A stretch of 64,000 bases of DNA from Burkholderiaceae bacterium (GTDB lineage Bacteria > Pseudomonadota > Gammaproteobacteria > Burkholderiales > Burkholderiaceae_C). Position numbers and translations under genes: made by a program. Location: the NCBI GenBank assembly GCA_026125795.1, contig JAHCKM010000001.1:1426001-1490000 (forward strand). Reading direction: 5' to 3'. The notes below the pieces were generated by a model. It made no database searches. It had not been told where the DNA came from and was given only the letters and a program-made list of their open reading frames with translations. Positions 9,616-61,586 of this stretch are shown piece by piece (the first letter of the stretch is position 1; every line of letters starts with the position of its first letter).

Positions 9616-9691
9616 GTCAGCCTCCGCCGGGCCGCCTCGAGGAGGCTGAAGCCCCCTTGAGGGGCAGCGAACAAAGTGAGCGTGGGGGCAT
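9616..9691 (-). repeat. Leader repeat copy A (upstream of aldo/keto reductase)
   Basis: One of five copies in the window. Read on the minus strand it has the conserved ACGCTCACTTTGTTCGCTGC core, a tight CCCCT/AGGGG hairpin, then a second hairpin with stem CAGCCTCC / GGAGGCTG (9641-9648 with 9618-9625) and a 15-nt loop containing GGCGGC, and ends CTGACATG at the gene start. A 24-codon frame opens at ATG 9691 behind a good GGGAGA ribosome site, encodes a peptide beginning MPPRSLCSLPLKGA, and stops with TGA at 9619-9617, one base before the reductase ATG. Confidence 0.85.
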
Positions 9692-9752
9692 GAAGATTCT
9701 CCCGCGCGGCAGGACGGAGCCGCGCGGAAGCATCCTACCCGGCACGTTCAAG

Positions 9753-11264
9753 CTACAACGAACGCAGGAAATTCAGCAGGTCCTGCTGCTGCGTGTCGTT
9801 GAGGTTGAAGTAGCGCTGCGTCACCGCGTTGGCCTCCGAGCCGTCGCTGGCGTGTTCGCGGATCGCCTGCTTCAGGTCGCTGGTGCGGCCGTCGTGCAGG
9901 AAGAACAGCCGCTGACCCAGCCCCCACAGCGGTGCGGTGCGGAACTCGCGGCCGCCGGCCTGGCCCTGCTGGATGCCGTCGGCCAGGCCGCGGCCCATGT
10001 CGTGCAGCAACAGGTCGGAGTACAGGTTGGCACTCTGGTAGCGCATCGCCGTGACGCTGGAGTTGTAGGTCTTCATGCTCGGCGTGTGGCACAACGCGCA
10101 GCCGGTGGTGGCGAACAGGCCGCGCCCGCGCGTGATCGACTCAGGCCCGCCGGGCTGCGTGGTCGATGGTGTCGGCGGTGCCAGGAATCGCATGAACAGC
10201 GTGAACAGGTCGATCGAGCTCAGCACCTCGGGCGCATGGCCGTCGAGCGACGAGTCGCTGTTGGGCAGCGTGGCGATGTTGCAGGCCTCGGTCTCGTCAC
10301 GCTCGGTCTGGAACAGCCCGTTGCTGATGCCCATCTCGACGTTGTAGGCCTCGCCCGAGAACAGCAGCAACGACTTGTTCTGCGCCTTCCAGCCAAAGCG
10401 CCCGGCCGTGCCGTCGTTGCCGTTGCGATTGAGCTGGCCCGAGATCGCGTTGGCGTTGAGCAAGATGTTGGGCCGTCCGCGGATGCCGAGGCTGCGCTTG
10501 ACGTCGGTCTGCGCGCGCTGGTGCTTGACGATCTCGCTGTCGGGGATCGCTTCGATCAGGCCGGCGCCGAACACCGGCGTGGGAATGCGGAACACCACGT
10601 TGCGGTTGGCCAGCTGGCGCGCGAAGTCGGGCTGCGCAACGGTGCAGCCCGGCGCGGCCGGATCGCCCGCGATCGTGAACAGCGCATGCACGCCGCCGTC
10701 CGGCGAGCCGTCGGGGTTTCGCACGAAGCGCGCCTCGCGCACCGGACCGCTGGCGGTGATGAACGGCGGCACCTTGTTCGTCATGCCGTTCTTGCCGGCG
10801 AACGCCACCTGCGGATTCACCAATGGGCTGGTGCCGCCGATCGCCGGCTGCGAGTGGCAGCCGCCGCAGCCGTCGAGGTTCATCGTCGGCCCGAGGCCTT
10901 CGTCAACCTCTTCGGCCTCCTCGAAGTCGGCCTTGCCGGCGATGAACGCGGCGAGTTGCGGCGGCGTCAAGCCGGCCAGGGGCGCGCCGGCGCTGTCGTT
11001 GCCGGCACGCGGACCGGGGTCGCGCGCGCTCGACGGGCGCACGGTCAGCGCGCTCGACGCGCCGACCGGCGCGTTGCGCTCGAAGGCGGCGACGGTTTCG
11101 CGCACCGCGTTGGCGGAGTCGGCGGCGCTGTGGACATTGGTGTTGGCGGCAGCGGTGCTGTCCAGAGCGGGCGCGTCAGCGGCGGCGGTGGTGTCGGAGT
11201 CCGAGCCGCCGTTGCAGGCCAGCAGACCCGTCGCGGCGATTAGGACGAACATCGAAGGTCTCAT
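9753..11264 (-). CDS. Di-heme c-type cytochrome lipoprotein (DHOR/DUF1111 family)
   Basis: A 503-residue exported protein. A lipobox ends at Cys17 (LLACNGG), followed by a low-complexity Ala/Ser/Asp linker and then the catalytic region. Two CxxCH heme-attachment motifs are present, CGGCH at about 133-137 and CALCH at about 389-393, as expected for the di-heme oxidoreductase family (PF06537). Family members are periplasmic or outer-membrane-anchored electron-transfer proteins, often annotated as thiol oxidoreductases; the true substrate is generally unproven. It is transcribed away from the MetE-like gene, with a 305-bp divergent intergenic region. Confidence 0.88.
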   Translation of the reverse strand: MRPSMFVLIAATGLLACNGGSDSDTTAAADAPALDSTAAANTNVHSAADSANAVRETVAAFERNAPVGASSALTVRPSSARDPGPRAGNDSAGAPLAGLTPPQLAAFIAGKADFEEAEEVDEGLGPTMNLDGCGGCHSQPAIGGTSPLVNPQVAFAGKNGMTNKVPPFITASGPVREARFVRNPDGSPDGGVHALFTIAGDPAAPGCTVAQPDFARQLANRNVVFRIPTPVFGAGLIEAIPDSEIVKHQRAQTDVKRSLGIRGRPNILLNANAISGQLNRNGNDGTAGRFGWKAQNKSLLLFSGEAYNVEMGISNGLFQTERDETEACNIATLPNSDSSLDGHAPEVLSSIDLFTLFMRFLAPPTPSTTQPGGPESITRGRGLFATTGCALCHTPSMKTYNSSVTAMRYQSANLYSDLLLHDMGRGLADGIQQGQAGGREFRTAPLWGLGQRLFFLHDGRTSDLKQAIREHASDGSEANAVTQRYFNLNDTQQQDLLNFLRSL

Positions 11265-12670: not shown

Positions 12671-12674
12671 CCGC

Positions 12675-19498: not shown

Positions 19499-19547
19499 TT
19501 GTTGACCCGGTGAGGCCCGCGCCACCACGCCGCCGTGGGCGCTGCGC

Positions 19548-21371
19548 TCAGGACGCCGACTCGGTCAACCCCGGTCCGAGCACGCGGCTGCGGCCGTGTT
19601 GCTTGGCCACGAGCAGTTGCTGGTCGGCGGCTTGCAGCAGCATGTGCGGCGACAGCGGCGCGCGCTGCGAATCGCAGATGCCGGCCGAGAAGCTCAGGCC
19701 GGTGAGCGTGTCGCCTTCGATGTCGAAGCGCTGCTGCCGCCACAGGACAAGCAGTGCGTTGACCTTGCGCTGGGCCGCGGCCGCATCCGTGCGCGGCATC
19801 AGCAGGCAGAACTCCTCGCCGCCGTAACGGCACGCGACGTCGCTCTTGCGGCAGTGCGCCAGCAGCAGCTTGCCAAAGGCCGCCAGCAGCGTGTCGCCCG
19901 CGCCGTGGCCGTAGCGATCGTTCACGGCCTTGAAGTGATCGAGGTCGATGATCGCCACCGCCAGCCCCTGGTGCTCGCGCTGCGCCAGCGCGAACGCGGT
20001 GGGCAGTGTTTCGTTCAGGTACCGGCGGTTGAACAGCCCGGTCAAGGCATCGCGCACCGCCTGCTCGTGCAGCGCCTGCTGCAGTGCCTGCACCTCGGCG
20101 ATCTTGCGCGACAGCTGCGCGTTGGCGGTCTCCAGCTCGGCGCGCGCGCGTTCGGTGGCACGGCGCTGCGACGATTGTTCGTCGAGCTTGTGCTGCAGGC
20201 GGATCAGCTCGGTTTGCAGCGCCGCCGCCTGGTAGCGTGCGCGCGAGGCCATGTGTGCGCGCGCCACGTGCAGCTGCTGCCAGATGCGCATGTGCGCCAG
20301 CGCCGGCTCGGTGTCGCGGAGCTGCTCGTGGATCTCGGATCGGATCAGAAAGTACATGCAGCGCACGCGCAGGCTCAGGCCTTCGGCGGCGTCGGTGTCG
20401 CCGGCCCCCACCAGCGGCAGCGCGCGGTCGAGCTCCCGCAAGGCATCGGGCCAGCGCCCTTCCTGGCCGGCGAGCAGCGCGGCGGCGATCGCCAGCTCGA
20501 CGTGCTCGTCGGGGATGTCTTCGCGCGGCGCCGCGCGTGCCTGTTCGACCAGTTCGCGGCCGATCGCGCGCTCGCCGGCGCGCAACGCGGCAATGGCCAT
20601 GGTCTCGTACGACATCGCAAGCGTGCCCCGGCCCTGCGAGCCGATGGGCAGGCTGCGCACGCGCGACACGTCGAGCATCGCCTCCTGCGCGCGGTCGAGC
20701 TCGGTCAGGCAGATCACGCGGTTGATCAGCAGCACGCTCAATAGCCGCGGGTTGTTCAGGTGATGGCAGCGCGTGATGCCCTGGTCGAGGTAACGCAGCG
20801 CTTCGTGGTAGTCGCCGATCTGCAGCAGCTCGTGCGCGAGGTTGCAGTAAAGCACCGCGTCGAAGCCGTGGCCATGCGTGGGGCCGGAATCGCGCAGCGC
20901 CTGGTACATATAGGCAAACGCCTGCTCGGAACGCCCTTGCGCGGAATAGCAGCCCGCGATGGTGTTGAGCATCACCCCGCGCTGCTCGTGGCGCAGCACC
21001 TGCAGGCCTTCTTCGCGCAGCGGCAGCACCTGGTCGAGCGACGCGGGGAACTTGCCTTCGCGCCACAGACAGCGCGCCAGACCGGTGCCGGCAAGGATGT
21101 AACCGGCGCGCTCGTGGATGCTCTCGAACTGCTGTTGCGCCGTCGTGAGTTCGGGCGCGGCCTCCGCCGGTGTGCCGAAGTACAGCAGATGCCAGCCGAT
21201 GGCCAGATGCGCCCAGGCCTCGCCGGCGATGTCGGCCCCCTGGCGCGCGGCCTCCAGCGCCTCGCGCGCCAGCGCCACCGAGCGCGCCGAATCCTGATGC
21301 AATAGCTGCCAGGCCTTGCGCGCCAGGCGCAGGCCCTTGGATGACGTCGAAAGCTCCCCAAACCTCGACAT
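19548..21371 (-). CDS. TPR-repeat diguanylate cyclase (GGDEF)
   Basis: A 607-residue cytosolic protein without a membrane segment. The N-terminal 370 residues are TPR-like helical repeats (for example ALREALEAARQGADIAGEAW and AFAYMYQALRDSG). A short coiled coil (LIRLQHKLDEQSSQRRATER) connects to a C-terminal GGDEF domain with DALTGLFNRRYLNE and an active CRYGGEEF motif. Predicted to make c-di-GMP in response to a protein partner sensed by the TPRs. The ATG is directly preceded by leader repeat copy B, whose short frame stops with TGA one base upstream; there is no good Shine-Dalgarno next to this ATG, so reinitiation is plausible. Confidence 0.9.
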   Translation of the reverse strand: MSRFGELSTSSKGLRLARKAWQLLHQDSARSVALAREALEAARQGADIAGEAWAHLAIGWHLLYFGTPAEAAPELTTAQQQFESIHERAGYILAGTGLARCLWREGKFPASLDQVLPLREEGLQVLRHEQRGVMLNTIAGCYSAQGRSEQAFAYMYQALRDSGPTHGHGFDAVLYCNLAHELLQIGDYHEALRYLDQGITRCHHLNNPRLLSVLLINRVICLTELDRAQEAMLDVSRVRSLPIGSQGRGTLAMSYETMAIAALRAGERAIGRELVEQARAAPREDIPDEHVELAIAAALLAGQEGRWPDALRELDRALPLVGAGDTDAAEGLSLRVRCMYFLIRSEIHEQLRDTEPALAHMRIWQQLHVARAHMASRARYQAAALQTELIRLQHKLDEQSSQRRATERARAELETANAQLSRKIAEVQALQQALHEQAVRDALTGLFNRRYLNETLPTAFALAQREHQGLAVAIIDLDHFKAVNDRYGHGAGDTLLAAFGKLLLAHCRKSDVACRYGGEEFCLLMPRTDAAAAQRKVNALLVLWRQQRFDIEGDTLTGLSFSAGICDSQRAPLSPHMLLQAADQQLLVAKQHGRSRVLGPGLTESAS

Positions 21372-21453
21372 GTCAGCGGCGCCCGGCCGCCCGAAGCCGC
21401 TGACGCGCCCCCTCGGGGGGCAGCGAGCGCGGCGAGCGTGGGGGCAAACACAT
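21372..21453 (-). repeat. Leader repeat copy B (upstream of TPR-GGDEF gene)
   Basis: Same element on the minus strand. A first hairpin is formed by GCCCCCCGAGGGGGC. The second has a perfect 9-bp stem GTCAGCGGC / GCCGCTGAC (21396-21404 with 21372-21380) around a 15-nt loop with GGCGGC, and the copy ends CTGACATG. A 26-codon frame from ATG 21453 (peptide begins MCLPPRSPRSLPPEGA) stops at TGA 21375-21373, one base before the GGDEF gene ATG. The stem sequence differs from copy A, but pairing is kept. Confidence 0.85.
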
Positions 21454-24500: not shown

Positions 24501-24828
24501 CGCCGCCGCCGCCGAACACCTGGATGTGCGCGCCGCCGCGCTGCTTGAGCAGGTCGACCATGTAGCGGAAGTACTCGACGTGGCCGCCCTGATAGCTGGA
24601 CACCGCGATGCCCTGCACGTCTTCCTGCAGCGCGGCGGTGACGATCTCGTCCACCGACCGGTTGTGCCCGAGGTGGATCACCTCGGCGCCCATGCCTTGC
24701 AGGATGCGCCGCATGATGTTGATGGCGGCGTCGTGGCCGTCGAACAGGCTGGCGGCGGTGACGAAGCGCACCTTGTGGGTCGGGCGGTACTCGGCAAGGG
24801 CCTTGAACTCGGCGGACAGGTCGGTCAT
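21535..24828 (-). CDS. icmF: Fused isobutyryl-CoA mutase (IcmF)
   Basis: A 1097-residue adenosylcobalamin-dependent acyl-CoA mutase. Domain order is typical of IcmF: B12-binding domain at the N-terminus ([15 protein letters not shown] and [11 protein letters not shown]), a MeaB-like G-protein chaperone in the middle (P-loop [14 protein letters not shown] near residue 215; NKFDRKGA), and the mutase barrel at the C-terminus ([20 protein letters not shown] and [18 protein letters not shown]). It interconverts isobutyryl-CoA and n-butyryl-CoA, and in some homologues pivalyl- and isovaleryl-CoA. It is preceded by the long leader repeat copy C, whose reading frame overlaps the ATG as ATGA. An AraC regulator is divergent. 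Confidence 0.95.
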
Positions 24829-24989
24829 GGCCGGCCTCCGTGGAGCCGCCTCAGGGAGGCTGGAGCCTCCGCGGGGCTGAGCCCGGACGGGAACAGTCCG
24901 GTGGACTGTTCCCGCCTGGCGAGGGGTTGACCGCTTGCGGGCAACGCGCCCTGCAAGGGCAGCGAACGTCGTGAGCGTGAGGGTCTCAT
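24829..24989 (-). repeat. Leader repeat copy C (expanded, upstream of icmF)
   Basis: A longer, more diverged copy on the minus strand. It keeps the ACGCTCAC..CGTTCGCTGCCC core, the first hairpin (CCCT/AGGG) and the last hairpin (GCCTCC / GGAGGC, 24855-24860 with 24834-24839, 15-nt loop with GGCGGC). Between them lie about 87 extra bases with a perfect 11-bp hairpin GGGAACAGTCC / GGACTGTTCCC (24889-24899 and 24903-24913). The whole remains open: a 54-codon frame from ATG 24989, with GGAGAG upstream, ends in a TGA that overlaps the icmF ATG (ATGA). Confidence 0.75.
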
Positions 24990-50734: not shown

Positions 50735-50813
50735 ATGGCCCCCACGCTCACTTCGCTCGCTGCCCCCCGAGGGGGCGCAGTCGGCTTGGGGCGGCCCGGC
50801 GCCGCCTGACCAG
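50735..50813 (+). repeat. Leader repeat copy D (prophage, upstream of F)
   Basis: Sense orientation to gene F. Core CCCACGCTCACTTCGCTCGC, first hairpin CCCCC-GA-GGGGG, second hairpin CAGTCGGC / GCCGCCTG (50778-50785 with 50801-50808, one mismatch) with a 15-nt loop containing GGCGGC. A 24-codon frame from ATG 50735 (peptide begins MAPTLTSLAAPRGGA) ends at TGA 50807-50809, four bases before the F ATG. It begins six bases after the stop of the previous gene, so it fills the whole intergenic gap. Confidence 0.85.
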
Positions 50814-52157
50814 ATGCCGCTCACTGCGCTGCCGCCGGGCTTCAAGCTCGGCGTGCTCGAGCCGCGCGACGCGATCGCCGCGTTCCAGCGGCGTGCGCTG
50901 CTGGAGCCGAGCTTTCGCTGGCAGGACGTGTTCCAGGAAGAGCACGCGCGCGCCTTCGCGGTGGCCGGCGTGATGCGGCTGGACGTGTTGCAGCTGTTCC
51001 AGCAGCAGCTGCAGGTGGCGCTTGCCGAGGGCCAGCGCTTCGAGCAGTTTGCGAAGGAGATGATGCCGCGCCTGGTGGGTGCGGGCTTCTGGGGCGACGT
51101 GAAGGTCACAGACCCCGAGAGCGGCGACACGCGCCTTGCGCGCTTCGACCGCCGGCGCCTGGGCCTGATCTTCGACGTGAACCTGCGCCAGAGCCAGGCC
51201 GCCGGCCGCTGGGCGGGGATCGAGCGGGCCAAGGCGCGCTTCCCGTTCATCATGTACCGCACCATGCGCGACGAGCGCGTGCGCGCCAGCCACCGGCCCT
51301 GGGACGGCGTGGTGCTTCCGGTGGACCACGAGTGGTGGCACACGCACTACCCGCCCAACGGCTGGCGCTGCCGCTGCACCGCCTTTGGGATCGACGAGCG
51401 GGGCATCGATCGGATGCGCGCGAAGGGCCTGCCGGTGAAGACGGTGGCGCCGGAGACGCGCTGGATCACCTACGTGAACCCGCGCACCGGGCAGATCGCG
51501 CCGGTGCCGCACGGCATCGACCCCGGTTTTGCGTACAACCCGGGCCAGCAGCGCGACGCCGCGTTCTTCGATGCGATGCTCGACAAGGCCGCGCGCTCCT
51601 CGCCGCTGGCCGGCGCATCGGTGGTGGCGCAAGCCACGGCGGACCACCAGGCGATGGTGGCGCAGGCCACCGGCCGTTTCGGCGACTGGGCCACGCGCGT
51701 GATCGCCGCCGGCCAGGCGCGCGGCGAGATGCAGTACGTGGGCGCGATCGCACCGGCGGCCGTGCGCGCGATGGCACTGCGCGAGGTGGAGCCGGCCAGC
51801 GCCGCGATCGCCGTGCGCGACCAGGATCTGCTGCACACGCTGCGCTCGAGCAAGATCGCCGGCGGCCGCGCGGTCGATCTCGCCACGCTGATGCGGCTGC
51901 CCGAGCTGCTGGTGCGCGCAAGCGCCTTGCTGCTCGAGAAAGGCGCCAAGCCGCCAGCGCTGGTGTACGTGATCGACCTGGGCGGCACCGACGGCAAGGC
52001 GGCCAAGCTGGTGGTGCTGCTGGACTACCAGGCCGCGCGGCGCGTGGCGGGCAAGAAGATGGCGCTGCCGCTGAACCTGGCGCGCACGATCAGCCTGGTG
52101 GATCGCACGGCGCTCACCGATGCCGCGCGCTACGAGCTGATCTGGGGTCGCTTGTGA
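50814..52157 (+). CDS. Head morphogenesis protein F (SPP1 gp7 / Mu gpF family)
   Basis: A 447-residue minor head protein. The conserved Mu F region is YRTMRDERVRASHRPWDGVV and HEWWHTHYPPNGWRCRCTAF. The C-terminal third has a second domain with ALVYVIDLGGTDGKAAKLVV and RYELIWGRL. In Mu-type phages it joins the portal during prohead assembly. It has no Shine-Dalgarno of its own; the leader repeat copy D ends just upstream, so it may be translated by reinitiation. 52158-52305 downstream holds no gene I can support. Confidence 0.9.
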   Translation: MPLTALPPGFKLGVLEPRDAIAAFQRRALLEPSFRWQDVFQEEHARAFAVAGVMRLDVLQLFQQQLQVALAEGQRFEQFAKEMMPRLVGAGFWGDVKVTDPESGDTRLARFDRRRLGLIFDVNLRQSQAAGRWAGIERAKARFPFIMYRTMRDERVRASHRPWDGVVLPVDHEWWHTHYPPNGWRCRCTAFGIDERGIDRMRAKGLPVKTVAPETRWITYVNPRTGQIAPVPHGIDPGFAYNPGQQRDAAFFDAMLDKAARSSPLAGASVVAQATADHQAMVAQATGRFGDWATRVIAAGQARGEMQYVGAIAPAAVRAMALREVEPASAAIAVRDQDLLHTLRSSKIAGGRAVDLATLMRLPELLVRASALLLEKGAKPPALVYVIDLGGTDGKAAKLVVLLDYQAARRVAGKKMALPLNLARTISLVDRTALTDAARYELIWGRL

Positions 52158-52305
52158 GGAGTGGCTGCCCGGCCGGTGCGCTCGAGTATGTCCGGCATAC
52201 GACAACCGGCAGAGGGCGCGATGCCTTGCCGGCCGCCCGCCCCGTCGCGACTTTCCGGGACGCCACAGGCAGCGCGGCCATGATACCGAGCGGAGCGCCG
52301 GCGCG

Positions 52306-52740
52306 GTGAGCTGCATCGCCTACAGCGACGGCTACGAGTACCAGCTCCGGGCGGACTGCCGGGTGGAGCTGTGGGAGCTGCGGCTGGAGCGCGACGTGGC
52401 GCTGCAGCCGTGGCTGGAGCTTTCCGGCGACGGCTGGCTGCTGATCCGAGCCGGCTATGCATGGGACGGCCCGTCGGGCCCGGCGATCGACACGCCGAGC
52501 TTCATGCGCGGCTCGCTGGTGCACGACGCGCTGTACCAGCTCATGCGCGACGGCGTGCTCGAGGAGGCGCTGCACCGCGCGCCGGCCGACCAGGCGCTGC
52601 GCCGGCTGTGCATCGAGGACGGCATGTGGCGCTTGCGCGCGTGGTGGGTCTACCAGGGCGTGCGGCTGTTCGGCAAGCCGCACGCCGACCCGGAACTGCG
52701 CAAACCCTGGCTGCGCGCGCCCGAAGGCTGCACGCCGTGA
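52306..52740 (+). CDS. DUF1353-like phage protein (144 aa)
   Basis: GTG start. The pattern LIRAGYAWDGPSGPAIDTPS followed by FMRGSLVHDALYQLMRDGVL matches DUF1353, a small phage protein with a conserved HDxLY motif suggesting metal or enzyme activity. It often lies in phage head or lysis regions. Overlaps the G gene by GTGA. Function not known. Confidence 0.75.
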   Translation: MSCIAYSDGYEYQLRADCRVELWELRLERDVALQPWLELSGDGWLLIRAGYAWDGPSGPAIDTPSFMRGSLVHDALYQLMRDGVLEEALHRAPADQALRRLCIEDGMWRLRAWWVYQGVRLFGKPHADPELRKPWLRAPEGCTP

Positions 52741-53207
52741 CCGACCGCTTCACCATCGAGCTCGACGAGCGCGAGCTGCAGCAGCGGCTCGATGACGCTG
52801 CGGCGCGGCTGGAGAACCCGCGCGAGCTGCTGGAGCGCATGGGCGGCGTGCTGCAGCTCAACGTGCAGCAGCGCTTCGACACCAAGACCGACCCCGGCGG
52901 CGCGGCCTGGCTGCCGCTGGCGCCGAGCACGGTACGGCGCTACCTGAAGAAGTACGACGGCAACATCCCGGGCAGCCTGCTGCAGCGCACGCGCCACATG
53001 CGCGACAGCCTCACGCACAACGTGGGCGACGGCTACGTCGACGTAGGCTTCAGCGAGGTGATCGCCGCGTACCACGAGACCGGCACGCGGCGCGGGCTGC
53101 CGCGGCGCTCGCTGCTGGCCGACGATCCGATCGCCGGCACGCTCGGCGCGCAGGACCGCGAGGACCTGCTCGACGAGGTGAACGCGTACCTGCAGACGCT
53201 GCTCTGA
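52737..53207 (+). CDS. Virion morphogenesis protein G (Mu gpG, tail completion)
   Basis: A 156-residue protein begun by GTG in a GTGA overlap. LNVQQRFDTKTDPGGAAWLP followed by LAPSTVRRYLKK, and later LLQRTRHMRDSLTHNVG and YHETGTRRGLPRRSLL match the phage virion morphogenesis family (PF05069). In Mu, gpG takes part in head or tail completion. Confidence 0.9.
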   Translation: MTDRFTIELDERELQQRLDDAAARLENPRELLERMGGVLQLNVQQRFDTKTDPGGAAWLPLAPSTVRRYLKKYDGNIPGSLLQRTRHMRDSLTHNVGDGYVDVGFSEVIAAYHETGTRRGLPRRSLLADDPIAGTLGAQDREDLLDEVNAYLQTLL

Positions 53208-53222
53208 GCGGCGCGTCTCTCC

Positions 53223-53240
53223 GCCGAACGATCGTTCGGC
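53223..53240. promoter_or_regulatory. 18-bp perfect palindrome before the protease/scaffold gene
   Basis: GCCGAACGATCGTTCGGC is a perfect 18-bp dyad in the 146-bp gap between G and the protease gene, with no T-run after it. It could be an operator for a late activator, or a hairpin. The rest of the gap (to 53353) contains no gene. Confidence 0.5.
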
Positions 53241-53353
53241 CCCGTCTTGATTGCGTCACGAATTCAACGGGCGACCCCACCACCGCGCGCGCTGGCACTC
53301 GATAAAACGCGATGGCTATGTGAGCCTGCACGCGCGACGCAAAGTGCCGGCCC

Positions 53354-54544
53354 ATGCGCTTGTTCGCCGCCCTGCTGGCTTCCACCTTCGCGCTCGCCGC
53401 GAACGGTGAGGCGCAGCTGCTGCCCGCGGGCGAGTTCGCGGCGAGAGATGGCCGCCCCGGGCCGGGCAAGCGCTGGCGTGTGACGGACGAGCAGGGTCGG
53501 CGCATCGCCGCCACGCTCTCCGCCACCGCCGCGATCACGCCGGTGGTGATCGACTACGAGCACCAGACGCTGCTGGCCAAGAGCAACGGCCAGGCCGCGC
53601 CTGCGGCCGGCTGGATCCGCGGCGCTGCCTGGCGGCCGGGCGAAGGCCTGTTCGCCAACGTCGAGTGGACCGCCGCCGCCAAGGCACGCATCGACGCCGG
53701 CGAGTACCGCTACATCAGCCCGGTGATCACCTTCGACGAGGACGGCACCGTCACCAGCGTGCAGCTGGCCGCGCTCGTGAACCACCCCGCGCTGCTGGGC
53801 ATGGAGCCCGTGGTGGCGCAGCTCGCAACGCAGTTTTCGTCTCTTCAAGAGGAGAAAGCCTCCATGACTCTGCTCGCGTCTCTGATCGCCGCGCTCGGCC
53901 TGCCGGCCGACACGCCCGAGGCCACCGCGCTGACCGCCGTGACCACGCTGTCGGCCGCGCCGAACAAGACCAAGATGGCCGAGGCGCTGGCCGGCGCGCT
54001 CGGCCTGCAGCCCAGCGTGGACCAGACCACGGCGCTGGCGGCGATCAGCGCACTGCGCCGCAGCCGCGACGCGATGATCGACGCGCTCGGTTTGCAGCGC
54101 GATGTGGACCAGGCCACCGCGCTGGCGGCGATCGCCACGATGAAGGGCAGCGGCGACGATGCGCGCACGCAGCTCGCGATGCTGCAGGCGGAGGTGGTTG
54201 CGCTGAAGACGCGCGAGACCGAGCGCGAACTGCAGGTGCTGCTCGACGACGCGATCGCGCAGCACAAGATCACGCCGGCACAGCGCGAGAGCTTGGCCAC
54301 CATCGGCAAGACGCAGCTCGCGTGGCTGAAGGGCCACCTGCAGGGGCTCAAGCCGATCCCGGGCCTGGAGGGCCAGAGCGGCGGCGCCGAGCGCGGTGCC
54401 GAAGGCAATGGCGGCGCCACGCCCGAGGCGCAGGCCAAGGATCTGGCGCAGCGCGCCCGCGCCTACCAGGCCGAGCAGCTCAAGGGCGGCATCGAGGTGA
54501 CCACCGCGCAGGCGGTGGCGCACGTGGCCGCGCTGAAGAGCTGA
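53354..54544 (+). CDS. Prohead protease with C-terminal scaffold (Mu gpI-like)
   Basis: A 396-residue protein. The N-terminal half matches the Mu I protease family (VVIDYEHQTLLAKSNGQAAP, GWIRGAAWRPGEGLFANVEW, YRYISPVITFDEDGTV). The C-terminal half is helical scaffold. In Mu, gene I also makes a shorter scaffold (Z) from an internal in-frame start, and a similar strong start exists here at 53864. The first 18 residues are hydrophobic (LFAALLASTFALAA), unusual for a head protease. ATG 53354 has no clear ribosome site. Confidence 0.88.
   Translation: MRLFAALLASTFALAANGEAQLLPAGEFAARDGRPGPGKRWRVTDEQGRRIAATLSATAAITPVVIDYEHQTLLAKSNGQAAPAAGWIRGAAWRPGEGLFANVEWTAAAKARIDAGEYRYISPVITFDEDGTVTSVQLAALVNHPALLGMEPVVAQLATQFSSLQEEKASMTLLASLIAALGLPADTPEATALTAVTTLSAAPNKTKMAEALAGALGLQPSVDQTTALAAISALRRSRDAMIDALGLQRDVDQATALAAIATMKGSGDDARTQLAMLQAEVVALKTRETERELQVLLDDAIAQHKITPAQRESLATIGKTQLAWLKGHLQGLKPIPGLEGQSGGAERGAEGNGGATPEAQAKDLAQRARAYQAEQLKGGIEVTTAQAVAHVAALKS
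53864..54544 (+). CDS. Probable internal-start scaffold protein (Mu Z-like)
   Basis: An in-frame ATG within the protease gene, preceded by AGAGGAGAAAG at good spacing (ending about 5-8 bases upstream), would give a 226-residue helical scaffold starting MTLLASLIAALGLPADTP. The strong ribosome site inside coding sequence, at the boundary between protease and scaffold parts, matches the Mu I/Z arrangement. Expected to guide capsid assembly and be removed by the protease. Inferred from Mu. Confidence 0.7.
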   Translation: MTLLASLIAALGLPADTPEATALTAVTTLSAAPNKTKMAEALAGALGLQPSVDQTTALAAISALRRSRDAMIDALGLQRDVDQATALAAIATMKGSGDDARTQLAMLQAEVVALKTRETERELQVLLDDAIAQHKITPAQRESLATIGKTQLAWLKGHLQGLKPIPGLEGQSGGAERGAEGNGGATPEAQAKDLAQRARAYQAEQLKGGIEVTTAQAVAHVAALKS

Positions 54545-54589
54545 CGCGCCGCGCGATCAACCACCCCACCTTTCACGGAGCAGCACGCG

Positions 54590-54973
54590 ATGTCGAACCA
54601 GACCCTCACCAAGCAGCTGATCGCCGAAGGCGCGATCTCGCCCAACCGCTTCGTCAAGTTCGGCTCGACGGACGAGTTCGTCGTGCAGGCCGCCGCGGCC
54701 ACCGACTCGATCATCGGCGTGTACGAGGGCTTCGGCTCGGTGGGCGCCGTCGCCAACGACCGCGTGGACGTCGTGCTCGGCGGCCTGGCGGAGGTGAAGT
54801 TCGGCGGCGCGGTGACGCGCGGCGGCGAGGTGACCAGCGACGCCAGCGGCCAGGCCGTGGCGAGTGCGCCGGCGGCGGGCTCCAACAACCGGCTGGGCGG
54901 CATTGCGTTCGCCAGCGCCGTGAACGGCGACATCGCCCGCGTGATCGTGGCGCTGGGCATGAAGCAGGGCTGA
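54590..54973 (+). CDS. Capsid decoration/cement protein
   Basis: A 127-residue beta-rich protein (GAISPNRFVKFGSTDEFVVQ, RVDVVLGGLAEVKFGGAVTR, GGEVTSDASGQAVAS). Size, composition and position between scaffold and capsid fit a DUF2190-type capsid cement protein. Preceded by an ACGGAG ribosome site. Expected to sit on the capsid surface. Confidence 0.8.
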   Translation: MSNQTLTKQLIAEGAISPNRFVKFGSTDEFVVQAAAATDSIIGVYEGFGSVGAVANDRVDVVLGGLAEVKFGGAVTRGGEVTSDASGQAVASAPAAGSNNRLGGIAFASAVNGDIARVIVALGMKQG

Positions 54974-55019
54974 TCGACCCGACAGCGCCACACCCGAAGC
55001 AACGAAGGAGAGCAGCTCA

Positions 55020-55952
55020 ATGGCAACCCGCCCGTTCCCGATCGACCCCAAGCTCACCGCGATCGCGATCGCGTACCGCAACCCCGACGTGGCGCTGATC
55101 GCCGACGACGTGTTGCCGCGCACGCCGGTGGCGCAGGAGTTCAAGTACCTCAAGTACGACCTGGGCCAGGGCTTCACGGTGCCCGATCTCAAGGTGGGCC
55201 GCAAGAGCTACCCCGCGGAGGTGGAGTTCAACGCCACCGAGGTGCAGGACAAGGTGGTGGACTACGGCCTGGACGACTTCGTGCCCAACGAGGACATCGA
55301 GGCCGACAACCAGGGCGTGGACCCGCGCGGCATGGCGGTGGCCTACCTGACCAACCTGATCAACCTGGGGCGCGAGATCCGCGCGGCCAACCTGGTGTTC
55401 AACACGAACAGCTACGTGGCCGGCAACCAGGTGACGCTCTCCGGCACGGGCCAGTGGAGCGACGAGGCGAACGCCAACCCGGTGAGCGCGATCGGCGACG
55501 CGCTCGACATTCCGATCTACCGGCCCAACATCGCGGTGTTCGGCCAGGCGGCGTGGACCAAGACGCGGCGCCACCCGAAGCTGGTGCAGGCCATCAAGGG
55601 CACGGCGCAGGGCGCGGGCATGGTGAGCCGCCAGGAGTTCGCCGACTTCTTCGAGCTCTCCGCGGTGTACGTGGGCGCGGGGTTCATGAACACGGCCAAG
55701 AAAGGCCAGACGGTGACCACGGCGCGCGTGTGGGGCAAGCACGCGGCGTTCCTCTACCGCGACCGCGCGGCCGGCCCGCAGGCGGGCGTGACGTTCGGCT
55801 TCACCGCGGCCTGGGGCGACAAGATCAGCGGCTCGATGCCCGACCAGAAGCGCGGCCTCACCGGCGGCGAGCAGGTGCGCGTGGGCGAGCGCGTGAAGGA
55901 GCTGGTGACCGCCACCGATTTGGGCTACTGGTTCCAGAACGCGGTGGCGTGA
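55020..55952 (+). CDS. Major capsid protein
   Basis: A 310-residue protein with the pattern of siphophage-type Mu-like capsids: FPIDPKLTAIAIAYRNPDVA, LIADDVLPRTPVAQEFKYLK, EVEFNATEVQDKVVDYGLDD and FVPNEDIEADNQG; later PVSAIGDALDIPIYRPNIAV. GAAGGAGAG precedes the ATG. Expected HK97-like fold. The most abundant virion protein. Confidence 0.9.
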   Translation: MATRPFPIDPKLTAIAIAYRNPDVALIADDVLPRTPVAQEFKYLKYDLGQGFTVPDLKVGRKSYPAEVEFNATEVQDKVVDYGLDDFVPNEDIEADNQGVDPRGMAVAYLTNLINLGREIRAANLVFNTNSYVAGNQVTLSGTGQWSDEANANPVSAIGDALDIPIYRPNIAVFGQAAWTKTRRHPKLVQAIKGTAQGAGMVSRQEFADFFELSAVYVGAGFMNTAKKGQTVTTARVWGKHAAFLYRDRAAGPQAGVTFGFTAAWGDKISGSMPDQKRGLTGGEQVRVGERVKELVTATDLGYWFQNAVA

Positions 55953-56024
55953 TCGACGCGATACAGCGACGACACGACGAGCAAGACGGCAACTGCAACG
56001 GCAACTGCAAAGGGGGCAAGCGAG

Positions 56025-56210
56025 ATGGTAAGAGCCAAGAGAAACGACGGCGAGGCGACCCAGGAGTACCGCGTGATCGGCAACCTGGAGCACGACGGCG
56101 AGCGCTACGGCGTGGGCGACACGGTGTCGCTGCCCGAGCGCGACGCACAGCCGCTGCTGGCGGCCAACGTGATCCAGCCGATGGCGCCGGAGGCGCCCGC
56201 CGCGGTCTGA
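56025..56210 (+). CDS. Small phage protein after capsid (61 aa)
   Basis: A short protein, EYRVIGNLEHDGERYGVGDT followed by VSLPERDAQPLLAANVI, of the type often found after the major capsid gene and annotated as DUF7210-like or hypothetical. Ribosome site GGGGG upstream of ATG 56025. Possibly an SH3-like beta fold; role unknown. Confidence 0.6.
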   Translation: MVRAKRNDGEATQEYRVIGNLEHDGERYGVGDTVSLPERDAQPLLAANVIQPMAPEAPAAV

Positions 56211-56238
56211 GATACCACCCCAGCGATGGGGCACTGAT

Positions 56239-56343
56239 CCCAGCGTAGTTGTCTGCCACGCGCTGGGGGAGCCCACAGACGGACTCAAGCGTGAACTTCC
56301 TGCCGGGGGCTTCATAGCGCGGATGGTGTAGGTAGCCCCCGGC
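56239..56343. promoter_or_regulatory. Two hairpins in the gap before the gp36-like gene
   Basis: CCCAGCG / CGCTGGG (56239-56245 with 56261-56267) and a stronger 10-bp perfect stem GCCGGGGGCT / AGCCCCCGGC (56302-56311 with 56334-56343, 22-nt loop). The second ends 14 bases before ATG 56358. No T-run follows, so a factor-independent terminator is unlikely. A transcript-stability or translational element is possible. Confidence 0.45.
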
Positions 56344-56357
56344 ACTTTCAACGCACC

Positions 56358-56774
56358 ATGCCCTACGCCACCCAAGCCGAGATGATCGCCAGCTACGGCA
56401 TGCCGAAGCTGGTGGCGCTCACCGACATCGGCCAGCCGATGACGGGCGAGCTGCAGGGCGCGGTGCTCGACGCCAAGCTCGACGATGCGTCGGCCGAGAT
56501 CGACGGCTACCTGGCGGGGCGCATGAGCGTGCCGCTGGCCAGCCCGCCGCCGGTGATCAAGCTGATGTGCCGGCGGCTGGCGTACTACCTGCTGCTGGGG
56601 CCTGCGGCCACCGAGGTGGACCAGGCCGACGCGAAGGCCGTGCGCGACTACCTGCGAGCAGTCGCGGCGGGCAATGTCTCCTTGACTTCACCCGACCAGG
56701 CGCCGGCGCAAGCGGGCGCCGGGTCGGTGCTTTTCGAGCAAGGGGCGAAGGACTGGGGTCGTGAGGCTGCATGA
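56358..56774 (+). CDS. DUF1320 protein (Mu gp36-like, head completion)
   Basis: A 138-residue protein: MPYATQAEMIASYGMPKLVA, then AKLDDASAEIDGYLAGRMSV and IKLMCRRLAYYLLLG match DUF1320, the Mu gp36 family thought to form the head-tail connector. Its position after the capsid and before the gp37-like gene is standard. Confidence 0.9.
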   Translation: MPYATQAEMIASYGMPKLVALTDIGQPMTGELQGAVLDAKLDDASAEIDGYLAGRMSVPLASPPPVIKLMCRRLAYYLLLGPAATEVDQADAKAVRDYLRAVAAGNVSLTSPDQAPAQAGAGSVLFEQGAKDWGREAA

Positions 56775-56783
56775 GGTGCGTGC

Positions 56784-57239
56784 ATGAGCAACGCCGCCGC
56801 AGCCGCGGACTACCTGTTCATCGGCCCGCTGATCGAGCAGCGCCTGCGGGCGCAGATCGGCGAGAACGTGCCCGTGGAGGGTGTGGAGCACATGGCGCAG
56901 GCGCGCGACGCGCAGGACCTGCGCGAGCTGGTGCTCTACGTGATGTGGGGCGGCGACAGCTTTGCCGGCGGCGAGGCCTCGCGTGCGCGCGGCGGCGAGA
57001 GCCAGCGCGTGTTCCAGCGCTGGATCGTGTGGCTGCGCGTGCGCAACGCGAGCGTGGCCAACAAGGCGGCGCGCAGCACGCGCGCGGGGCCGCTGCTTTC
57101 CGCCGTGCACAAGGCGCTTGCGGGCTGGACGCCGGAGGGCGCTTTCAGGCCGTTGCTGCGCACGCAGGGGCCGGCGCCGGACTATCAAGCGGCCAGCGGT
57201 CTGTACCCGCTCGCCTTCGAGATCAACCTGTCACTCTAG
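56784..57239 (+). CDS. DUF1834/gp37-like tail-terminator type protein
   Basis: A 151-residue protein from ATG 56784 (GAGGTG upstream): YLFIGPLIEQRLRAQIGENV and QDLRELVLYVMWGGDSFAGG fit the Mu gp37/DUF1834 family, at the head-tail junction. Ends 10 bp before the tail-tube gene. Confidence 0.8.
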   Translation: MSNAAAAADYLFIGPLIEQRLRAQIGENVPVEGVEHMAQARDAQDLRELVLYVMWGGDSFAGGEASRARGGESQRVFQRWIVWLRVRNASVANKAARSTRAGPLLSAVHKALAGWTPEGAFRPLLRTQGPAPDYQAASGLYPLAFEINLSL

Positions 57240-57249
57240 AGGTGAGGCG

Positions 57250-58017
57250 ATGAGCGGTTTCCTGGGGCAAGGCAAGGTGTTCGTGGGCCTGCGGCTGGCA
57301 TCGGGCTTGCCCGACATCAGCCGCTGGATCGGCAACGCGAGCGTGTTCAAGCTCGGCATGGAAGAGGACTCGATCGAGCGCAACGAAAGCTACTCGGGCA
57401 ACCGGCTGCCGCTGCGCCGCGCCACGCGCACGCGCCAGGGCACGGTGCAGATCGTGTTCGACGAGTTCTCCGACGACAACGCCGCGCTGGCGCTGATCGG
57501 CGCCAAGACGACGGTGGCCGCGGGCTCGCCGCAGACCAACGTGGCGCTGGCCGCGACGGTGGGCAACCCGGCCAAGGTGGGCGACACGCTGATCATTCCG
57601 GGGCACAACCTGAGCGCGGTGACGATCAAGGACAGCACGGGGTCGCCCAAGACGCTGACGCTGGACACGAACTACTCGCTCGACGCCTTTGCCGGCTCGA
57701 TCGACATCCTGAACCTGACGACCGGCGGGCCGTTCGTGATGCCGCTCACCGCGGACTTCACGCCGGGGCAGCGCACGGTGGTGGGCGCGTTCAAGACCGT
57801 CTCGCCGGAGGTGTACGTCCGGCTGAACGGCATCAACACCGACGACGGCTCGCGCGTGATCGTGGACGTGTTCCGCTCGCGCCTCTCGCCGGCGCGCGAG
57901 TTCAACCTGATCGGCGACGACTTCGCCGACTTCGAGCTCAACGGCAGCATGCTGGCCGACCTCACGCGGCTGCAGAGCGCGGCTGGCGGGCAGTTCTTCA
58001 GCATCACTCGGGCCTGA
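57250..58017 (+). CDS. Major tail tube protein (siphovirus type)
   Basis: A 255-residue beta-rich protein preceded by GAGGTGAGG. VFVGLRLASGLPDISRWIGN, FKLGMEEDSIERNESYSGNR and FKTVSPEVYVRLNGINTDDG fit a tail-tube fold; there is no sheath gene beside it, so the tail is non-contractile. Followed by tail chaperone and tape measure genes in the canonical order. Confidence 0.85.
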   Translation: MSGFLGQGKVFVGLRLASGLPDISRWIGNASVFKLGMEEDSIERNESYSGNRLPLRRATRTRQGTVQIVFDEFSDDNAALALIGAKTTVAAGSPQTNVALAATVGNPAKVGDTLIIPGHNLSAVTIKDSTGSPKTLTLDTNYSLDAFAGSIDILNLTTGGPFVMPLTADFTPGQRTVVGAFKTVSPEVYVRLNGINTDDGSRVIVDVFRSRLSPAREFNLIGDDFADFELNGSMLADLTRLQSAAGGQFFSITRA

Positions 58018-58019
58018 CC

Positions 58020-58490
58020 ATGACGGCAGGCAGTGAGGGCGCGGGCGGCCCCAGCCTGCGCGAGCTGATGGCCGCCCCGGTGGAGCTGCCGGTGGGCACG
58101 CTCAAGCTGCCCGTGCGGCCGATGGGCTGGTACCAGGCCACGCTGGCACTCGAGCCGATCATTCCGCTGCTGGCCACGCTGCCGGATGCACTGGGCGCCG
58201 CCGGCGAGAGCCGCGCCGAACAGGCGGCGCGCTGGATGCAGATGCTGGCCTCGAGCCGCGACGAGATCGCGCGCTTCGCGGCGCTGGCCAGCGCGCTGCC
58301 CGAAGGCGAGATCCGCGAGCTGCCGCCGGCGGCGCTGTGCGAGCTGGTGGTGGGCCTGCTGGAGATCAACGCCGATTTTTTCGTGCGCAGCCTGCCGCTG
58401 CTGATGGAGCGAGCAGGCGCCAGCGTGGGGCTGCTGTTGGGCAAGCTGGCCGCGGCCGACGCGGCATCGCAGACGACTTCCAGCGCCTGA
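58020..58490 (+). CDS. Tail assembly chaperone (G-like)
   Basis: A 156-residue, mostly helical protein (SRAEQAARWMQMLASSRDEI, ELVVGLLEINADFFVRSLPL) between tube and tape measure, the place of lambda G. A second ORF in the -1 frame overlaps its end (to 58678). The codons for D-F-F are GAT TTT TTC, creating T TTT TTC in the correct phase for -1 slippage, although this genome strongly prefers GAC and TTC. Confidence 0.85.
   Translation: MTAGSEGAGGPSLRELMAAPVELPVGTLKLPVRPMGWYQATLALEPIIPLLATLPDALGAAGESRAEQAARWMQMLASSRDEIARFAALASALPEGEIRELPPAALCELVVGLLEINADFFVRSLPLLMERAGASVGLLLGKLAAADAASQTTSSA
58376..58382 (+). other. Candidate -1 programmed frameshift site TTTTTTC
   Basis: The heptamer T TTT TTC is read as TTT TTC in the zero frame of the chaperone. 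After a -1 slip, both tRNAs can re-pair and translation enters the 58678 frame. GC-rich sequence downstream could form a stimulatory structure. Predicted fusion: residues 1-121 of the chaperone plus 98 residues, 219 in total. Confidence 0.6.
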
Positions 58491-58678
58491 TCGGCGCGGG
58501 GCACCGGTGGAGCGAGGTGATGCACTACACGCCTGCGCAGACGCGGTGGTTTCTCAAGGCGATCGATCGCGCTGAACGCGACGCGCACCGCGCGCAGGTG
58601 ATCGGCGCACGCGTGGCGCAGGCAGCCGACGGCAAGGCGGTGACGCGCTACCTCGACGGGCTGGAAGACAGGGACTGA
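58383..58678 (+). CDS. Frameshift extension of tail chaperone (GT-like)
   Basis: Open in the -1 frame relative to the chaperone, ending at 58678 just before the tape measure. The C-terminal half looks real (HRWSEVMHYTPAQTRWFLKA followed by IDRAERDAHRAQVIGARVAQ). It has no strong start of its own, although ATG 58520 with GGAGCGAGG upstream could give a 52-residue stand-alone product. By analogy with lambda T it should bind the tape measure. Frameshift inferred. Confidence 0.65.
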
Positions 58679-58685
58679 ACGCGCC

Positions 58686-61502
58686 GTGGCCACGCAGCTC
58701 GAAGCCCACCTGCGCATCCGCGCCGACACGGCGCAGGCGGCCGCCGGCGTGCGGCAGATCAAGACCGAGCTGCAGGGCCTGGGCCAGGCCGCGGGCAACG
58801 CGAGCGCCGGGCCGGCCAACGTGGCCGACCTGCTGCGCAGGAAGCTCGACGAGGCGGCGGCCAACGCGAGGAAGCTGGGCCAGACGCCGGTTGTGCCCAG
58901 GGGCCTGCCCAAGCTGAAGGACGACGCCGACGCGGCCGCAAAGGCCTTGCAGCGCACGCAACGCCAGGCCGCGCTGCTGGTGCCGCAGCTCAACGACATC
59001 TTCACGCAGCTCGCATCGGGCACCAGCCCGCTGACGGTGCTGGTGCAGCAAGGGCCGCAGATCCGCGACGTGATGGGCTCGTGGAGCAATGCGGGCAAGG
59101 CGCTGCTGAGCGTGTTCACGCCGCTGCGCGTGGCGATCGGCGGCGTGCTGGGGGTGGCGGCCACGTTCGCGCTGGCGGCGTTCCAGGGCGCACAGGAGAG
59201 CCGCGAGCTGGGCCGTGCGATCGCCTTCACCGGCAACGCGGCCGGCGTGACGGCGGGCCAGGTGGAGGCGATGACCACGCGCATCGCCGAGAGCACGAAG
59301 CAAAGCCGCGGCGACGTGCGTGCCACGCTGACCGAGCTGATCGCCACCGGGCGCTTTACCAGCACGAGCCTGGACAGCGCGGCGCGCGGCGTGGATGCGT
59401 TCGCCAAGCTCACCGGGCGCTCGCGCGCCGAGGCGGTGAGCGACTATGCGGCAATGGCCGACGGCGTGACGGCGTGGGCCACCAAGTACGACCGCGCGCT
59501 GAACTTCCTCACGGCCGCGCAGCTCCGGCAGATCCGCCAGCTCGAGAGCCTGGGGCGCACGCAGGAGGCGGTGCGCGTGGCGAGCGACGCGCTGGCCGAC
59601 GCAGCCAAGCAGCGGCACGAGCCGGCGCTGGGCGTGCTGGAGCGTGCCTGGCGCGCGGTGGGCCTGGCGGTGAGCGGCGTGTGGGAGGCGCTCAAGAGCA
59701 TCGGCCGCGACAACACGGCGGAGCAGGAGTTCCAGCGGCTGCAGGGGCGACTGCAGACGCTGCTGGAGCTGCGCGAGCGTGCGACTGCGCCGCTGACGCA
59801 GCGCCAGCAGGCGCAGAGCAACGCCGAGATCGAGCGCGCGCGCGCGGCGCTGCAGGACGCGTTCAAGCGATTGGAGCGCGAGCAGGGCAATGCGTCCGGC
59901 ACCGCGGAGGCGCTGGCGCGCGAGCAGGAAGAGAAGCGCCGGCTGGAGGCGGGTTTTCAGAGCGCACAGGCGCAGCAGGCCAACGCCGATGCCGCCAAGC
60001 GCCTGGCGCAGTTGCAGGCGCGGCTGGATCGCGAGCGCGATGCCGTGCAGAGCGACCACGCGCGCGGACTGCTCGACGAGCGCGCGTACCAGGATAAGCT
60101 GGCCGAGATCGAGGTGCGGCGGCTGCAGGCGCAGGCGGACAACCTGCGCAAGCAGCGCGAGACCGAAGCGGCGCGCGATCCGGGCACGAAGCCTGAGGAC
60201 CGCCTGGCGCAGGCGGCCCGGCTGGCGCAACTGGACGCGCAGATCATCGACGCACAGTCGCGCGCCACCACGGCGGCCGCGCAGCGGCGCGAGAAGGCCG
60301 ACGCCGATGCGCTGGCAGAGGCGCGCACGAAAGCGACCGAGTGGGCCGCGGTGTGGCTGCGCGCGGAGGAACAGGTGCGCCGCTTTGCGCAGCGCAACGC
60401 GGTGCGCGCAGCCGAGGGTGAAGCGGACCCGGTGGAGCGCGCTCGGCTCGAGGCCGATGCCGCGGTGGCGGAGACGAAGCGCGTGTTCGAAGACGCGCAG
60501 ATCGAGCTGAAGGCCAAGATCGTCTCGCCCACGCTGACGCCCGGCGAGCGCGCCGAACTGCAGAAGCAGCTCGACCAACTCACCGCGCAGGCAACGAAGG
60601 CGATCGCCGAGGACACGCGGCGCGCGCGCTTCGACTCGCTGGTGCAGCAGTTCAACGAGCTAGCCGTTGCACTGGCCACCGCCGAGCAGCAGATCGACCA
60701 GGCCGTGGAGCAGGGTCTGATCACCACCGAGGAGGCCGAGCGCCGCAAGATCGCTGCACGCGAAACGTCTATCACCCAGCTCGAGCGCATCCGCGCGCTG
60801 CTCAGCAGCAGTGCGCAGACGCCCGCGGAGCAGAACACTGCGGCGCAGGTGGCGCTGACCGCGCAGGGCTACCGCGAGTTGCGCACCGAGATCGAGAAGA
60901 CCGCGCGCGGCGCCGCGGTGAGCGGCCTGGCCACGGCACTCACTGACATCGAAACCGGCGCCAAGCGCGGCAAGGACGCGCTGCTGGACATGGTGGGCGG
61001 CTTCGCCAAGGCGATGCTCGACGTGCTGAACCGCAAGCTGGCCGAGGCGCTGGTCAAGCAGTTCGCTGACGCGGCGGCCAGCGGCGGCTTCGGCTCGCTG
61101 CTGTCCACCGCGGGCTCGTTCATCGCGAGCTTCTTTCACTCGGGCGGCGTGGTGGGCGCGCCGGGCGGCATGCGCCGCGCGGTGCCGGCCGCGGCCTTCA
61201 CGCTGGCGCCGCGCTTTCATGGCGGCGGCGTGGTGCCCGGGCTGATGCCGGGCGAGCGGCCGATCGTGGCGCGTGTGGGCGAGACGATCCGCACCGAGCA
61301 GCAGGAGCGCGCGCTGCAGCGCAGCCTGGGTGGTGTGCAGATCACCAACAACATGACTATCACCGGCGACGCGGCACAGGGCGGAGCCGACGGCGCAAGC
61401 GCGGCGCTCGATGACCTGGCGCGCGTGCAGGAAGAGGCGATGAGCCGCTGGGCGATCAAGCAGATGCGGCCCGGCGGGCTGTTCTCGCAAGGTCAACGCT
61501 GA
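58686..61502 (+). CDS. Tail length tape measure protein
   Basis: A 938-residue protein begun by GTG 58686. The N-terminal 160 residues match the lambda H-type tape-measure start (LVPQLNDIFTQLASGTSPLT followed by VLVQQGPQIRDVMG; membrane-like AIGGVLGVAATFALAAFQG). Long coiled coils fill residues 330-720 (for example RLEAGFQSAQAQQANADAAK). A second hydrophobic patch (LLSTAGSFIASFFHSGGVVG) comes near the C-terminus. It sets tail length and is injected at infection. Followed by leader repeat copy E. Confidence 0.93.
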   Translation: MATQLEAHLRIRADTAQAAAGVRQIKTELQGLGQAAGNASAGPANVADLLRRKLDEAAANARKLGQTPVVPRGLPKLKDDADAAAKALQRTQRQAALLVPQLNDIFTQLASGTSPLTVLVQQGPQIRDVMGSWSNAGKALLSVFTPLRVAIGGVLGVAATFALAAFQGAQESRELGRAIAFTGNAAGVTAGQVEAMTTRIAESTKQSRGDVRATLTELIATGRFTSTSLDSAARGVDAFAKLTGRSRAEAVSDYAAMADGVTAWATKYDRALNFLTAAQLRQIRQLESLGRTQEAVRVASDALADAAKQRHEPALGVLERAWRAVGLAVSGVWEALKSIGRDNTAEQEFQRLQGRLQTLLELRERATAPLTQRQQAQSNAEIERARAALQDAFKRLEREQGNASGTAEALAREQEEKRRLEAGFQSAQAQQANADAAKRLAQLQARLDRERDAVQSDHARGLLDERAYQDKLAEIEVRRLQAQADNLRKQRETEAARDPGTKPEDRLAQAARLAQLDAQIIDAQSRATTAAAQRREKADADALAEARTKATEWAAVWLRAEEQVRRFAQRNAVRAAEGEADPVERARLEADAAVAETKRVFEDAQIELKAKIVSPTLTPGERAELQKQLDQLTAQATKAIAEDTRRARFDSLVQQFNELAVALATAEQQIDQAVEQGLITTEEAERRKIAARETSITQLERIRALLSSSAQTPAEQNTAAQVALTAQGYRELRTEIEKTARGAAVSGLATALTDIETGAKRGKDALLDMVGGFAKAMLDVLNRKLAEALVKQFADAAASGGFGSLLSTAGSFIASFFHSGGVVGAPGGMRRAVPAAAFTLAPRFHGGGVVPGLMPGERPIVARVGETIRTEQQERALQRSLGGVQITNNMTITGDAAQGGADGASAALDDLARVQEEAMSRWAIKQMRPGGLFSQGQR

Positions 61503-61504
61503 CC

Positions 61505-61586
61505 ATGTTGACCCCCACGCTCACTTCGTTCGCTGCCCCCCGAGGGGGCGCTCAGTCGGCTCGGGAGCGGCCCAGCGCCGACTGAC
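61505..61586 (+). repeat. Leader repeat copy E (prophage, upstream of M)
   Basis: Sense orientation to the M-like gene. Core CCCACGCTCACTTCGTTCGC, first hairpin CCCCC-GA-GGGGG, second hairpin with a perfect 8-bp stem CAGTCGGC / GCCGACTG (61553-61560 with 61577-61584), 16-nt loop. A 26-codon frame from ATG 61505 (begins MLTPTLTSFAAPRGGA) ends at TGA 61583-61585, one base before the M ATG. Starts three bases after the tape-measure stop. Confidence 0.88.

Follow-up and report, generated by a model that had tools for sequence, protein, structure and literature searches.

MIRUs of Mycobacterium, according to the passages available of a 2025 review (PMC12548453, citing Supply 1997), seem to be mobile; they insert at start codons, and the frame that they contain is coupled to the gene at −4 nt. 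The Beta-proteobacterial repeat element (BRE; Hot et al. 2011, PMC3110155) is described in the available parts of that report as about 75-91 bp long, GC-rich, and both dispersed and tandem in Betaproteobacteria including Comamonadaceae; its mobility is considered possible and its function was left open. Most BREs lie between genes, some overlapping the ends of reading frames by a few bases, and the same passages name no link to start codons or to short frames. The palindromic elements of Rickettsia, in the excerpts available of a review (PMC10969869), are repeats that are compatible with in-frame translation and form in-frame fusions with genes. Translational coupling at ATGA and TGATG junctions is established, and a separation of about 20 nt nearly abolished it in six gene pairs (available passages of PMC6728339 and PMC10666635). 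In the literature searched, which covered few subscription papers, we found no report of a start-codon and short-frame link for such a repeat outside Mycobacterium.

The repeat analysed here resembles MIRUs, as portrayed in those passages, in being short and apparently mobile, in lying at start codons and in carrying a frame coupled to the gene, a likeness of architecture read from the sequence (40/47 and 46/50 copies in the two sets defined below); dispersal among start codons and presence or absence between relatives were also found. It differs from MIRUs in belonging to another phylum, in having two GC-rich hairpins with a variable 3′ stem, in using all three frames, and in forming TGANATG and TGATG junctions besides ATGA, the comparison being one of architecture. 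With the BRE, as far as the available description goes, it shares size, GC content, host group and tandem arrangement, and it is probably related to that element, judged by the published description. Near lexA, a published BRE site, no copy was found in the one genome concerned. In contrast to the gene fusions reported in the Rickettsia excerpts, the frame here mostly ends at the gene start, with fusions in 2/47 and 2/50 copies. The MIRU review and the coupling papers mean that the principle is already known; what we add is the element itself, its host range, the variety of its junctions, its arrays and the likely link to BRE-like repeats.

An earlier note, made from the letters of a 64,000-nt stretch of a Burkholderiaceae genome (the window), had described five copies of a leader, each in front of a gene and each with a short frame of 24 to 54 codons closing at the gene start. 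All five were found again and are detected by R1, a covariance model that we built from 37 simple copies, and their frames measure 24, 26, 54, 24 and 26 codons (A to E):

9616..9689, minus strand: copy A repeat, R1 match of 80.8 bits
9617..9691, minus strand: copy A short frame, 24 codons, TGA-C-ATG (−4) onto the aldo/keto reductase start at 9615
21372..21445, minus strand: copy B repeat, R1 match of 78.4 bits
21373..21453, minus strand: copy B short frame, 26 codons, TGA-C-ATG (−4) onto the TPR-GGDEF start at 21371
24830..24984, minus strand: copy C repeat, long form, R1 pieces at 24925-24984 (33.1 bits) and 24830-24876 (22.1 bits)
24825..24989, minus strand: copy C short frame, 54 codons, stop in ATGA overlap (+1) with the icmF start at 24828
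50738..50810, plus strand: copy D repeat, in prophage, R1 match of 86.8 bits
50735..50809, plus strand: copy D short frame, 24 codons, TGACCAGATG (−7) onto the Mu F-like gene start at 50814
61511..61586, plus strand: copy E repeat, in the gap between the tape measure and minor tail genes, R1 match of 95.3 bits
61505..61585, plus strand: copy E short frame, 26 codons, TGA-C-ATG (−4) onto the minor tail start at 61587

Recomputing the junctions gave the same result as reported earlier, with TGA-C-ATG in A, B and E, TGACCAGATG in D and an ATGA overlap in C, and the offsets from ATG to core were likewise 2 mod 3 in A, B and C (8, 14 and 11) and 0 mod 3 in D and E (9 and 12). The genes after B and E had been said to have no other ribosome site, and by eye no purine-rich site precedes the ATG of either gene. 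The products encoded 3′ of copies A to E are, by Pfam, an aldo/keto reductase, a TPR-GGDEF protein, IcmF, a Mu F-like protein and a phage minor tail protein; the icmF product is a fused isobutyryl-CoA mutase with B12-binding, MeaB and MCM domains. An additional hairpin module separates the two halves of copy C, and because of it R1 sees this copy as two weak pieces. A search of the window for the 20-nt core at ≤3 mismatches gave 4 matches where 0.01 are expected, and copy B, which is more diverged than these matches, was recovered by the covariance model. The short-frame ATG of copy E starts 2 nt past the tape-measure stop, and a GATAAT box lies just 5′ of the short-frame ATG of copy B (by eye). 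At least 50814-61928 is occupied by structural genes of a prophage (Mu F-like, tape measure and minor tail; Pfam), with D and E among them. The window contains no Rfam match at gathering score.

The repeat is GC-rich and about 75-85 nt long. Its 5′ half is a conserved block, CCCCCACGCTCACTTCGTTCGCTGCCCCCCGAGGGGGC, with one short hairpin, its 3′ half is a hairpin whose closing arm often terminates in CTGA(C/G), and the frame in use is free of stops. Extra modules lie between the halves in the window copy at 24825-24989 and in L037, L040, L007, L009, L052, L039, L048 and L061, and in several such copies the short frame is open for about 50-59 codons. Both sides have changed in 5 of the 9 predicted pairs of the consensus structure. 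The 3′ halves yielded 79 and 76 distinct stem strings in two sets, which indicates variety and not covariation because each 3′ half was folded alone. Compared with shuffled sequences, RNA folding was weakly better or no better (z = −0.6, +1.0, −1.3, −1.0 and −2.0).

Within the 6.57-Mb genome to which the window belongs (own genome), R1 gave at least 148 matches at E ≤ 0.01 (150 candidates scored), a few of which are fragments of one copy. The 20-mer core occurs there 115 times at ≤3 mismatches, part of these occurrences being a different repeat that is also matched by the 20-mer (CCGCTCACTTCGTTCGCTGT) and was excluded from our counts; this second family (L036, L043, L058 and L059, own genome), in which CCGCTCACTTCGTTCGCTGT lies within GTCGAAACTCCC...GTCGAACAGTCGACGCGAGTCAG, is a separate element. 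The core at ≤1 mismatch was present in 47 of 250 genomes of the family. Across the order, a 25-nt pattern at ≤2 mismatches was found in 11 of 300 genomes and an R1 match in 17 of 200, and R1 also had matches in 45 of the 121 genomes of another family of this order. Named genomes contain at least 114 stretches with the repeat; R1 was applied to 80 of these loci, and the 80 listed come mainly from Burkholderiales and Rhodocyclaceae-type genera. Rubrivivax, Ideonella, Piscinibacter, Methyloversatilis, Burkholderia and others are also represented among the matches listed. With copy E as the query, we retrieved 14 plasmid records and no match in the phage collection, and a 28-nt exact pattern of the repeat occurred in 3 viral stretches. 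In two viral contigs that have a stretch in common (L308 and L310), the repeat lies directly before the ATG that opens a called gene.

To locate copies relative to genes, we used our own gene calls, from a self-trained codon model seeded with 12 genes judged real. The 137 placed copies of the own genome are the 148 matches minus 9 that were not fetched and after merging 2 split pairs, with copy C not included. A sense gene start between −14 and +45 nt of the repeat 3′ end was found for 96/137 copies vs. 479/5480 random sites in the same loci, and within the tight interval of −4 to +6 nt the counts were 71/137 and 93/5480, respectively. In the named other genomes, 71 of 108 copies lie at a sense start, and several of the others are inner units of arrays. 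Many copies start 1-12 nt after the preceding stop. Random placement and orientation relative to gene starts, which the earlier note had named in advance as speaking against its proposal, is thus not what the genome contains. The same note had described the copies as sense and at starts; this is true of all five in the window and does not extend to 41 of the 137 copies genome-wide, of which 17 face a gene on the opposite strand, 12 have their sense gene further away, and 9 antisense and 3 sense copies lie inside a called gene. By eye, four antisense copies of the own genome (C3:5657-5730, C3:599488-599561, C4:233840-233913 and C4:362577-362650) read ATGA...GGGGG and then a start codon on the opposite strand, which is the same architecture reversed. 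Reverse function is thus apparent for some copies, whose other strand runs ATGA...AAGGGGG up to a start codon (by eye). Two loci, L296 and L277, have copies in the cell-wall gene cluster, recognised by eye from the protein starts: at a murG-murC junction in one genome and, as an antisense array, at an ftsW-murG junction in another.

We then compared the short frames with chance in standard close copies, meaning those that have the standard 5′ module, an ATG upstream of it and a called start in sense orientation at −4 to +6. Each frame was opened at whichever ATG was nearest within 28 nt and was scored as in frame when its stop fell at −12 to +5 of the gene start, and the expected number is the share of each copy's three frames, the observed one included, that stop in this interval. 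In the own genome, 40 of 47 copies end the short frame at the gene start vs. 18.0 expected (P = 1 × 10−12), and in other genomes, where L210 of the same genus was omitted from the set, 46 of 50 do so vs. 19.7 expected (P = 8 × 10−17). An upstream ATG in frame at only about one third of copies had been set beforehand as the result that would tell against coupling; the share found was 85-92% of standard close copies. Two further copies in each set continue in frame into the gene as N-terminal extensions, and 5/47 own and 2/50 other copies are out of frame and unfused, three of these seven stopping at +7 or +10. When the 5′ offsets were shuffled 5000 times among copies, the mean counts were 27.5 and 28.5 and the maxima 36 and 38 (own and other, respectively); as the shuffles never reach the observed counts, the mutual compensation of offset and body length goes beyond what descent from a single layout would give. 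Some of the excess of in-frame copies is inherited, because subfamilies have a common ATG context. Under looser criteria, 56/80 copies were in frame vs. 27.7 expected; among the misses, five start inside an extra module, and two of these five (L048 and L061) have an in-frame start further upstream. No ATG lies within 28 nt in 16 of the 96 start copies. The commonest junctions, TGANATG, ATGA and TGATG, are those already known from coupling.

All three frames are used (29/9/2 in the own set and 32/8/6 in the other), and the peptide changes with the frame (PPRSLRSLPPEG, PTLTSFAAPRGG and PHAHFVRCPPRG), so that no conserved peptide was found across the own and other standard close sets. Since all three frames occur, it seems to be translation, and not the peptide, that matters.

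Ribosomes could reach the short frame in several ways. Where a co-directional neighbour is present, the distance from the preceding stop to the short-frame ATG is −4, −1 or +1 in 22/68 own and 35/65 other copies. SD matches of at least 4 bases precede the short-frame ATG in 27/61 own and 24/50 other close copies and the gene start in 16/61 and 20/50, and they occur in a control stretch in 8/61 and 8/49. Where no gene lies close upstream, the SD frequencies at the short-frame ATG vs. the gene start were 10/24 vs. 7/24 (own) and 3/10 vs. 5/10 (other). Several own copies have a −10-like box a few bases upstream, such as the GATAAT of copy B (by eye), which suggests leaderless starts.

Tandem arrays are readable through to the gene start in 12 of 17 cases, finishing within −4 to +1. 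In 5 of the 17 (L184, L191, L197, L201 and L208) the units form a chain in which the stop-start junction of each unit opens the next, and 7 (L196, L219, L230, L242, L261, L267 and L270) form a single open frame, where L242 and L270 are counted on the assumption that the gene begins at an in-frame ATG 5′ of the start that we called; some array gene starts are GTG. Of the other five, L022, L223 and L240 do not fit, L190 stops 15 nt early, and L183 reaches the contig end. The arrays L278-L293, from another family of the order, share the body of the repeat and have T-run/A-run stems; they lie mostly in intergenic gaps and look terminator-like (by eye). They may be the published BRE, and our guess is that they stand nearer to it than the start-codon copies do.

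Presence or absence of the repeat was read at orthologous sites. In 400 kb of the same-genus genome G391, both flanks were matched for 13 own copies; at one of these, C3:155803, the identity is 67-70%, and the match is possibly a paralogue. R1 gave 4 matches at E up to 0.1 in the G391 DNA and four nuoN loci, one of them at the shared locus C2:677895 and another being a relative in opposite orientation at the C2:1719248 junction. At C2:1599964 the relative has no R1 match and has a short ATG...TGA frame ending on an ATG (by eye), perhaps a decayed copy. No copy was found by R1 (E up to 0.1) at the remaining sites of the 13 flank-matched loci in G391. The cleanest near-empty site is C5:149806, where the relative reads agcTGATGGAG and the own genome reads agcTGATGGg, then the repeat ending in TTGAT, then GGAG; at this one clean site TGATGG stands on both sides of the insert, a possible target-site duplication. 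At nuoN, the own genome has a copy between this gene and the preceding one, and four genomes of the same genus lack it. In five genomes of the same genus, the best matches to the gene after copy A reach about 37-38% identity; none is a close counterpart, which puts copy A outside this comparison. Left and right junction types match in 18/31 copies of the other set vs. 9.0 when shuffled and in 6/14 own copies vs. 4.1, exceeding shuffles only in the other-genome set. Terminal inverted repeats, a MITE trait, were not seen by eye at the aligned copy ends (CCCCCACGCTC / CTGAC). Presence and absence between same-genus genomes supports dispersal of the repeat.

These patterns are, in our judgement, probably best explained by a presumably mobile repeat whose insertion at a start codon is tolerated because it re-establishes coupling between termination and re-initiation. 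It would go into start codons and, within operons, into stop-start junctions. A ribosome due at the host gene, arriving via an SD, a preceding stop or perhaps a leaderless start, would initiate at the short-frame ATG, 5′ in the repeat, rather than at the gene, translate 24 to about 59 codons across the repeat while opening its hairpins, halt at a TGA touching or nearly touching the ATG of the gene, and re-initiate at that ATG; the insertion would be tolerated because coupling is rebuilt across it. The earlier note had proposed a mobile translation-coupling leader, with which placement, phasing and dispersal agree; movement and translation are what we infer from them, and the MIRU precedent, the antisense copies and the terminator-like relatives had not entered that proposal. 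A bolder version, which we put forward tentatively and hold to be possible without expecting it, is that of a selfish repeat moved by transposition machinery for which stop-start junctions (ATGA, TGATG and TGANATG) are the target, recognised and duplicated at each insertion so that coupling is regenerated on both sides; it would have originated independently of MIRUs, from a stock whose other branch became T-run terminators.

Were the repeat simply a palindrome or terminator between genes, of the common BRE or REP kind, short operon gaps would force it into contact with starts and the frames would be incidental. The terminator-like T-run/A-run relatives in intergenic gaps of another family and the short distances from many copies to the preceding stop are in keeping with this, but it fails to predict the 40/47 and 46/50 copies in frame, the compensating offsets and the restart chains in arrays, and we regard it as unlikely. 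A regulatory element, in which translation of the short frame gates the downstream gene like an attenuator and copies are kept for setting expression, would account for a 3′ hairpin that often contains the stop and adjoins the start and for a closing arm with GGAGG in one subfamily (11/61 own and 17/50 other copies); for iraD, repression by CsrA is reported to target a short coupled frame upstream of the gene (PMC5574718, in the passages available). The recognised downstream genes are, however, unrelated, the peptide is not conserved, and the repeat is absent from most of the orthologous sites compared, all of which makes regulation improbable as the reason for its presence. As to how copies might spread, the small size, the hairpins and a polarity fixed towards the target recall classical REPs moved by a Y1/RAYT transposase. 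Yet no PF01797 match was found in the own genome or in 13 of 16 other copy-holding genomes, and the four Y1 loci of the other 3 had no copy in the flanks examined (E up to 1), so that spread by this enzyme is very improbable.

If the hand-over from short frame to gene that the coupling reading proposes is real, start-codon insertion made harmless by such a ribosome relay exists outside Mycobacterium, possibly with an independent origin. An abundant and functionally unexplained betaproteobacterial repeat would then have a testable role, and re-initiation could be studied on its copies, a large natural collection of coupled short frames. Annotators would also be warned that many gene leaders in such genomes may contain translated repeats.
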